This document shows, in pieces, positions 12,169 through 13,421 of a stretch of DNA of 13,421 nucleotides. The stretch is taken from the NCBI GenBank assembly GCA_030641945.1, contig DAOWLL010000012.1, forward strand, positions 1 to 13,421, in the 5' to 3' direction. A program made the translations under genes and the position numbers. The DNA is from Gammaproteobacteria bacterium. Lineage in GTDB: Bacteria > Pseudomonadota > Gammaproteobacteria > SZUA-229. The notes below the pieces were generated by a model that ran no database searches, was not told the DNA's origin, and was given only the letters and a program-made list of their open reading frames with translations. How positions within the stretch are numbered: position 1 is the first letter of the stretch; every line of letters starts with the position of its first letter.

Positions 12169-12196
12169 GGAACTAATTGATCGTTTAGCACTCTCA
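12169..12196 (+). promoter_or_regulatory. Predicted sigma-E-type promoter of rpoH
   Basis: GGAACTA (12169-12175) and TCTCA (12192-12196) are separated by 16 bases. This matches the extracytoplasmic sigma-E pattern GGAACTT-N16-TCTRA at 6 of 7 positions in the -35 and 4 of 5 in the -10. The spacing is that of known E. coli sigma-E promoters, including rpoH P3 as I recall it. The predicted start is near 12202, giving a leader of about 39 bases. Sigma-E transcription of rpoH has precedent in E. coli; its use here is inferred from the motif. Confidence 0.6.
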
Positions 12197-12211
12197 TAAA
12201 AGGAGTGCTAA
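12185..12211 (+). promoter_or_regulatory. CIRCE operator (HrcA-binding site) upstream of rpoH
   Basis: TTAGCACTC (12185-12193), nine bases, then GAGTGCTAA (12203-12211): an exact match to the CIRCE consensus TTAGCACTC-N9-GAGTGCTAA, with all 18 arm positions conserved. CIRCE is bound by the repressor HrcA, normally at groESL or hrcA-dnaK promoters, and HrcA activity depends on GroEL. Here it ends 29 bases before the rpoH start codon and covers the -10 and start region of the predicted sigma-E promoter. No groES, groEL, hrcA or dnaK is in the window, so the target must be rpoH. hrcA itself should be elsewhere in the genome. Confidence 0.93.
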
Positions 12212-12240
12212 TATATGACCATAAAACAGAGGAGCAATTG

Positions 12241-13116
12241 ATGTCAGACACATTGGCAATGAATAAAGCACTGGCACCAGCCAGCGCTTATTTACCCGTC
12301 AGCGTTGATAACCTTGACGCCTATATTCGCCAGGTTAATAATTTTCCTATGTTAAACGCTGATCAGGAGCGCGAGCTCGCAGTGCAATTTCATAGCAACA
12401 ATGATCTCGAAGCCGCGCAACGGCTCATCATGTCGAACCTTCGTTTTGTTGTCAGCATAGCCCGTGGCTACATGGGCTACGGCCTGTCTTTCAATGACCT
12501 TGTTCAGGAAGGCAATATCGGCCTGATGAAAGCTGTAAAGCGTTTCTCGCCCGAGCATGAAGTTCGCCTGATCTCCTATGCCGTTCACTGGATCAAAGCT
12601 GAAATACATGAGTTCGTGCTGCGTAACTGGCGCATCGTTAAAGTTGCCACTACCAAGGCCCAACGCAAACTGTTCTTTAAACTGCGCAGTTCTAAAAAGC
12701 GCCTGGGCTGGTTCAGCCAGGAAGAAGTCAATGATGTAGCAGACAAGCTCGGCGTCAAACCCGAAACTGTTCTGGAAATGGAATCGCGTCTGAATGCGCA
12801 TGACCTTGCCTATGACAACCCGCTTGACGATGATGATGACAACCATTTTGCACCCGCCGCTTACCTGAGCGACATGCGAGCCGATCCAGCACAGCAGCTC
12901 GAAGCTGATGACTGGAGTTCGCAGAATCAGACCACCATGATGTCATCATTAAAGCATCTTGATGATCGCAGCCGCACAATCATCCAGCGCCGCTGGCTTG
13001 ATGAAGACAAGGCAACCCTGCATGAACTCGCGAAAGAGTACCAGGTTTCAGCAGAACGCATTCGTCAGCTTGAAAGTAACGCCCTGAAGAAACTAAGGGT
13101 CGCGTTTTCAGCCTGA
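12241..13116 (+). CDS. rpoH: RNA polymerase heat-shock sigma factor RpoH (sigma-32)
   Basis: This 291-residue sigma factor directs RNA polymerase to heat-shock genes. Visible parts are the sigma-70 region 2 ([19 protein letters not shown] at about 66-84, [18 protein letters not shown] at 85-102, [14 protein letters not shown] at 117-130), the RpoH box QRKLFFKLR (141-149) that separates RpoH from RpoD and RpoS, and the region 4.2 helix-turn-helix (about 259-285). An acidic run DDDDD is at 196-200. Length is close to E. coli (284). ATG 12241 is chosen for AGGAG at 12230-12234; an upstream in-frame GTG (12205) lies inside the operator and lacks a binding site. Control is predicted from a sigma-E-type promoter overlaid by CIRCE. 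Post-transcriptional heat control, known in E. coli, cannot be judged here. Confidence 0.98.
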
Positions 13117-13142: not shown

Positions 13143-13175
13143 AAAGCCCCGCTCAAATAGAACGGGGCTTTTTTT
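13143..13175 (+). terminator. Intrinsic terminator of rpoH
   Basis: AAAGCCCCG (13143-13151) and CGGGGCTTT (13163-13171) form a perfect 9-base GC-rich stem with an 11-base loop, and the T-run continues to 13175. It starts 27 bases after the rpoH stop and is a textbook Rho-independent terminator. Confidence 0.93.
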
Positions 13176-13284
13176 ATGGGCCTTCACCCCATCAAGTGGG
13201 TAAAAAATTCAAATGATTGCCACAGAGAACACAGAGGTTTTAGCCGCAAATAACGCGAATATTTTTATTAAAGCTACCATTCTC
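13176..13284. repeat. Spacer with a degenerate CACAGAG repeat arm
   Basis: This is non-coding DNA after the rpoH terminator. It holds two CACAGAG heptamers nine bases apart (13221-13227 and 13230-13236), the same unit as in the repeat at 3151-3258, but no matching opposite arm follows. It looks like a single, decayed arm of that repeat type. The rest is AT-rich with nothing recognisable. Confidence 0.5.
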
Positions 13285-13365
13285 GTAGGGTGGGTTAGGC
13301 GAAAGCCGTAACCCACCAGATTGCATTAATCGCGTGGTGCAATACGCTTCGCTATTGCACCCTAC
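13285..13365. repeat. 81-bp double-hairpin interspersed repeat with GTAGGGTG ends
   Basis: Terminal inverted octamers GTAGGGTG (13285-13292) and CACCCTAC (13358-13365) enclose two hairpins. The first (13289-13317) pairs GGTGGGTTA with TAACCCACC around a GAAA loop. The second (13336-13361) pairs GGTGCAATA with TATTGCACC. Similar GTAGGGTGGGTTA motifs are common dispersed repeats in many bacterial genomes, as I recall. TCTC stands just outside the left end and, one base displaced, the right end. It resembles a small non-autonomous element. Confidence 0.7.
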
Positions 13366-13389
13366 GTCTCTGGATGCCAGCAAGGAACA

Positions 13390-13421
13390 GGACATATGTC
13401 CACAGATAAACGCAGATGAAC
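13390..13421. repeat. Partial second copy of the window-opening repeat
   Basis: These 32 bases match positions 1-32 with one difference (CGCAGAT for CACAGAT in the second unit), including the palindrome GGACATATGTCC. The window ends inside the left arm, so the rest of the repeat is not visible. It is in direct orientation with the first copy. Confidence 0.8.

Follow-up and report, generated by a model that had tools for sequence, protein, structure and literature searches.

A CIRCE operator overlapping a predicted sigma-E-type promoter upstream of rpoH in Gammaproteobacteria

An operator and promoter elements before rpoH

Which stress signals reach rpoH, the gene of the heat-shock sigma factor sigma-32, when the operator of the repressor HrcA lies immediately upstream of it? 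The question is raised by the window analysed here (the whole stretch of DNA, 13,421 nucleotides from the gammaproteobacterial assembly GCA_030641945.1), in which ftsY, ftsE and ftsX are followed by rpoH, ftsX being likewise located upstream of rpoH in E. coli K-12. The identity of the encoded RpoH is given by TIGR02392 (401.4 bits against a cut-off of 323.1), with an ATG at 12241, and the features needed for the argument are the following.

12169..12175, plus strand: sigma-E-type -35 element, GGAACTA
12192..12196, plus strand: sigma-E-type -10 element, TCTCA, 16 bases past GAACTA
12185..12211, plus strand: CIRCE (HrcA operator), with left arm 12185-12193, spacer 12194-12202 and right arm 12203-12211
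12185..12190, plus strand: possible sigma-70-type -35 element, TTAGCA, 18 bases from TAATAT
12206..12214, plus strand: possible extended sigma-70-type -10 element, TGC-TAATAT, partly within the right CIRCE arm
12228..12234, plus strand: likely ribosome binding site, AGAGGAG (by eye)
12241..13116, plus strand: rpoH, heat-shock sigma factor sigma-32 (TIGR02392 and NF005143, both over their cut-offs)
13144..13176, plus strand: likely intrinsic terminator of rpoH (by eye, a G+C-rich stem followed by a T run)

The terminator is absent from the listing of the generic scan; past it, positions 13220-13400 are non-coding and hold stretches, such as GTAGGGTGGGTTAGGCGAAAGCCGTAACCCACC, that by eye resemble dispersed repeats.

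The initial annotation had described a perfect CIRCE with a nine-base spacer on rpoH, and had proposed a hierarchy in which HrcA stands above this gene. The operator is indeed as described, TTAGCACTC-TCATAAAAG-GAGTGCTAA at 12185-12211 forming a 9-9-9 inverted repeat with 0 mismatches and with a gap of 29 bases between its end and the rpoH start. No other CIRCE match occurs in the window even at up to 3 mismatches, and a chance origin was rejected on the basis of 200 dinucleotide shuffles, which give a mean expectation of 0.01. The proposed hierarchy gains from the presence of hrcA and the conservation of the site described below, but it is incomplete, because CIRCE overlaps a sigma-E-type promoter that had been missed, GGAACTA-N16-TCTCA at 12169-12196, so that rpoH would be the meeting point of two stress inputs.

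The -10 element TCTCA straddles the junction of left arm and spacer, taking in the final two bases of the former and the initial three of the latter. In the available portions of the literature, the RpoE promoter motif is given as a -35 element GGAACTT with a -10 element TCAAA or GTCAAA (PMC4890791; PMC1804206), the same -35 element being also given in an excerpt of a further source (PMC8103513), and GAACTA in the window is one base off GGAACTT. The spacing of GAACTA-N16-TCTCA is identical to that of the rpoH P3 promoter of E. coli K-12, GAACTT-N16-TCTGA, which serves as a sigma-E reporter according to the part of the source available (PMC2731931).

A possible second promoter of the sigma-70 type is built from the operator itself. 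Its elements in the window, TTAGCA and TAATAT, are weak, and a generic sigma-70 promoter scan gave no match at the window's CIRCE site. Among the genomes of the class sample introduced below, a T is found at +3 past CIRCE in most rpoH sites, by which the right arm, ending in TGCTAA, is extended to TGC-TAANNT, a form resembling an extended sigma-70 -10 element. TANNNT occurs at that place in 61/69 sites that also carry the sigma-E-type GAAC (hereafter composites), 34/38 other rpoH sites and 7/28 groES sites. The left arm reads TTGGCA, nearer to TTGACA, in 29/107 rpoH CIRCEs, the mirrored right position being G in 2, and deviations in the three inner arm bases number 16 on the right and 2 on the left. 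Such asymmetry would arise from bases shared by promoter and operator; its value as a mark of rpoH alone is weakened, since hrcA control CIRCEs lean likewise, with G at left position 3 in 6 of 14 against 3 at the mirrored position. Basal rpoH transcription would probably come from this possible extended -10 element, to which the right arm contributes.

Conservation, co-occurrence and controls

The initial annotation had left room for a genome devoid of hrcA, and had looked to further CIRCE sites and to conservation among relatives for evidence on the proposed link. The window's genome, assembled to 2.7 Mb in 634 contigs and 86% complete, does encode HrcA (PF01628, E 6.9e-63, over the cut-off) as a whole domain with no internal stop. 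It carries three CIRCE matches at up to 3 mismatches, each upstream of a gene, namely groES (0 mismatches), rpoH (0) and hrcA (3). RpoE is encoded as well (TIGR02939, 313.5 bits against a cut-off of 236.15); by eye, the downstream neighbours of rpoE are apparent rseA and rseB genes, with a nadB-like gene adjoining, and GAACTA-N16-TCACA is present upstream.

The site is also conserved. In the best 30 RpoH loci from 58 genomes searched, the window's own included, CIRCE precedes rpoH in 30/30 (up to 2 mismatches), and GAAC, as GGAACT, TGAACT or close forms, starts exactly 15 bases upstream of CIRCE in 29/29 loci with upstream DNA. A wider view was obtained from a class sample of 158 genomes, almost every one of them representing a family of its own, in which RpoH was over its cut-off in 143, hrcA was found in 115 and rpoE was over its cut-off in 109. 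Usable rpoH upstream DNA came from 144 of the 158, the other 14 being left out; most of these upstreams (127 genomes) were 710-711 bases long, 15 were of 480 bases, and single ones of 661 and 318. One genome below the RpoH cut-off (G166) was kept, and in a genome with two rpoH genes (G068) the copy with CIRCE was counted and the copy without it was not. At up to 3 mismatches, CIRCE was present before rpoH in 107/144 genomes, 57 of these sites being exact, and its presence follows that of hrcA, the site being found in 98/106 genomes with hrcA against 9/38 without (Fisher 1.5e-15, families treated as independent of descent).

The sigma-E-type element often accompanies the operator. GAAC begins within one base of the distance seen in the window, at -14 to -16 from CIRCE, in 69/107 sites (58 at -15, 9 at -16 and 2 at -14), against 54 matches in 9951 positions over every other offset from -100 to -5. 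The sigma factor itself accompanies these composites, rpoE being over its cut-off in 68/69 of them and in 23/38 other CIRCE-rpoH genomes (Fisher 2.5e-7, families treated as independent). The last base of the -10 element, an A at spacer position 3, is found in 61/69 composites, 15/38 other rpoH sites and 4/28 groES sites.

GAAC at -14 to -16 is lacking in 38 of the 107 CIRCE-rpoH sites, a point against the reading proposed below. A sigma-E-like match lies elsewhere between -200 and +100 of CIRCE, in some cases downstream, in 16 of the 23 whose genomes have rpoE over its cut-off and in 1 of the other 15 (Fisher 1.6e-4), the background of this expression being matches in 3.3% of shuffled upstreams. 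In eight genomes a second geometry occurs, the match lying at -29 to -31 with its -10 element ending just before CIRCE, which suggests that the coupling itself has been kept, beyond the inheritance of one string. Tandem pairs of CIRCE-like repeats were also seen before rpoH at three loci, L045 (genome G046), L244 (G088) and L251 (G176).

The association with hrcA has exceptions in both directions. Eight class genomes have hrcA without CIRCE at rpoH, among them G149, where a sigma-E-like match is accompanied by a CIRCE-like repeat in altered spacing, and G157 and G183, which have a sigma-E-like match only. Conversely, five genomes at least 97% complete (G052, G111, G130, G164 and G171) have CIRCE at rpoH without an hrcA match, for which a missed hrcA, another binding protein or use of the repeat as promoter are possible reasons. 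In two hrcA-less genomes with rpoE, G038 and G113, the sigma-E-like elements are kept and CIRCE is gone or damaged, a state that fits the model of an HrcA operator laid over a sigma-E promoter; in two others, G174 and G139, no sigma-E-like match was found before rpoH, and G092 has a distant match only.

The same arrangement emerges when rpoH is left out of the query. An exact scan of contigs for GAACT-N10-CIRCE returned at least 117 stretches, from records labelled mostly as gamma- or betaproteobacteria, or plainly as Proteobacteria, and in 113 of these RpoH is encoded downstream (tblastn); three stretches (L099, L110 and L118) end, by eye, inside an apparent RpoH start, and one (L139) ends 200 bases on. 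Among the 117 stretches listed, 91 have A at spacer position 3 and 111 have the TGC-TAANNT form. Cultured carriers of the composite include Azoarcus sp. TTM-91 (L111) and Alcanivorax sp. S6407 (L058). In a phylum sample of 398 genomes, many from the same families, exact GAAC-N11-CIRCE, a single offset only, was found in 5/398, all in the window's class and four before rpoH (the window's included), against 30/144 in the one-per-family class sample, which indicates an arrangement spread across families and rare among those heavily sequenced in the phylum sample. The fifth match, in G108 (L341, around 1500), lies by eye before a ClpB-like gene, the rpoH of this genome being without CIRCE.

Controls were taken from CIRCEs away from rpoH, 40 having been fetched of 46 places picked among the matches listed, with two added from the window's genome. 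At groES, GAAC was present at -14 to -16 in 0/28 sites (that of the window's genome and 27 others). At hrcA it was present at -15 in 2/14, both in the window's genus (G003, locus L329, and G006, locus L323), and in these two genomes a switch like that of rpoH may control hrcA itself.

How rpoH might be switched

What the genomes show directly is where the sites lie, how they are spaced and conserved, and that they occur together with hrcA and rpoE. On this ground we consider it quite probable that HrcA would block sigma-E transcription of rpoH, and probably sigma-70 transcription as well, joining cytoplasmic and envelope stress at one gene. The same DNA stretch before rpoH would act as promoter and operator together. 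In other bacteria, GroEL controls the activity of HrcA and RseA that of RpoE. Envelope stress would thus free RpoE, and the sigma-E promoter (GGAACTA and TCTCA) would drive rpoH, while HrcA bound at 12185-12211 would cover the sigma-E -10 element and the start region and keep either holoenzyme off. Once unfolded protein ties up GroEL, HrcA activity would be lost and the rpoH promoters would open; sigma-32 would then drive the wider chaperone set, and newly made GroEL would restore HrcA, closing a negative feedback. We infer from the layout of the sites that HrcA would bind here, occlude the promoters and impose an AND-like gate, in which sigma-E is active and HrcA is off, rpoH output being highest with both.

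Other readings of the same DNA have to be set beside this one. HrcA might repress rpoH through a CIRCE placed over a sigma-70-type promoter only, GGAACTA not being a working sigma-E promoter here. Such a reading would account for the presence of CIRCE at rpoH in genomes lacking rpoE, and for the equal frequency of TANNNT with and without GAAC, but it leaves unexplained the fixed distance of GAAC in every close locus, its tie to rpoE and to the A at spacer position 3, and a spacing equal to that of E. coli P3; we regard it as unlikely. The retention of the site in 9/38 genomes without an hrcA match, five of them nearly complete, could also be taken to mean that CIRCE is kept mainly as promoter DNA, its arms doubling as promoter elements, with HrcA control of rpoH weak or lost. 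The strong association with hrcA speaks against this, as do the hrcA-less G038 and G113, in which it is CIRCE and not the sigma-E elements that has decayed, and the perfect palindrome in the window, and the idea appears distinctly improbable.

Transcribed inverted repeats can fold, and the repeat might act only after transcription, forming a hairpin or thermometer in the mRNA, and not serve as a DNA operator. This is disfavoured because both start sites, as placed from the promoter positions, would fall past the left arm; moreover, arm changes are unpaired, and an Rfam search of the window returned no RNA family at or above its gathering score, so that we give the mRNA reading hardly any credence.

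The predicted HrcA-gated sigma-E promoter can be extended to a wider evolutionary proposal. Across many gammaproteobacterial families, with the former Betaproteobacteria counted in, rpoH would be run by a composite in which one HrcA operator overlies both a sigma-E and a sigma-70-type promoter, cytoplasmic chaperone load gating the envelope-stress input to the heat-shock regulon. Where hrcA was lost, as in E. coli and other lineages, the sigma-E promoter would have been kept bare, the textbook wiring being a reduced form. We place this proposal at an even chance and no higher, because part of the arm asymmetry is also seen in the hrcA controls and because a bare sigma-E promoter is missing from some genomes that lack hrcA.

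Relation to known systems

The initial annotation had called the novelty of a CIRCE at rpoH unproven, and the answer differs for the two parts of the arrangement. The link between CIRCE and rpoH is not new, because a 2004 study had predicted a perfect CIRCE in Geobacter sulfurreducens at -51 relative to rpoH (PMC545781, Table 8). This was the only source on HrcA and rpoH, as far as the accessible text of such sources extends, seen to place CIRCE at rpoH; Permina and Gelfand, who dealt with beta-, gamma- and epsilon-proteobacteria, may already list such sites. As to the overlap with a sigma-E promoter, the portions of the open literature covered, with few subscription papers, yielded no report of HrcA control over an rpoH sigma-E promoter.

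If the proposed mechanism is true, sigma-32 activation and HrcA repression, the two best-known heat-shock strategies of bacteria, would be one circuit in many little-studied proteobacteria, and the envelope response would enter at the same rpoH promoter. A simple prediction would follow, namely that rpoH needs both sigma-E activity and HrcA release. Judged by its motifs, the putative HrcA operator over a sigma-E promoter is recurrent in many lesser-studied proteobacteria and not in E. coli, where P3 sits at -120 of the ATG, no CIRCE is visible by eye in the printed upstream sequence and, among the control genomes, PF01628 (HrcA) had no match. The proposed mechanism would also offer a way to ask how E. 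coli copes without HrcA.

The Geobacter site resembles that of the window in having a perfect CIRCE near rpoH in a genome where hrcA and groESL also carry CIRCE; the two differ in that the available part of the report concerns delta-proteobacteria and mentions no sigma-E promoter at the site (PMC545781). With the CIRCE/HrcA system of groESL, rpoH would share the same operator and presumably the same repressor. The difference is one of placement, the operator following a TTGACT...TAT-like promoter at the 28 groES sites, whereas the rpoH operator sits within the putative promoter itself.
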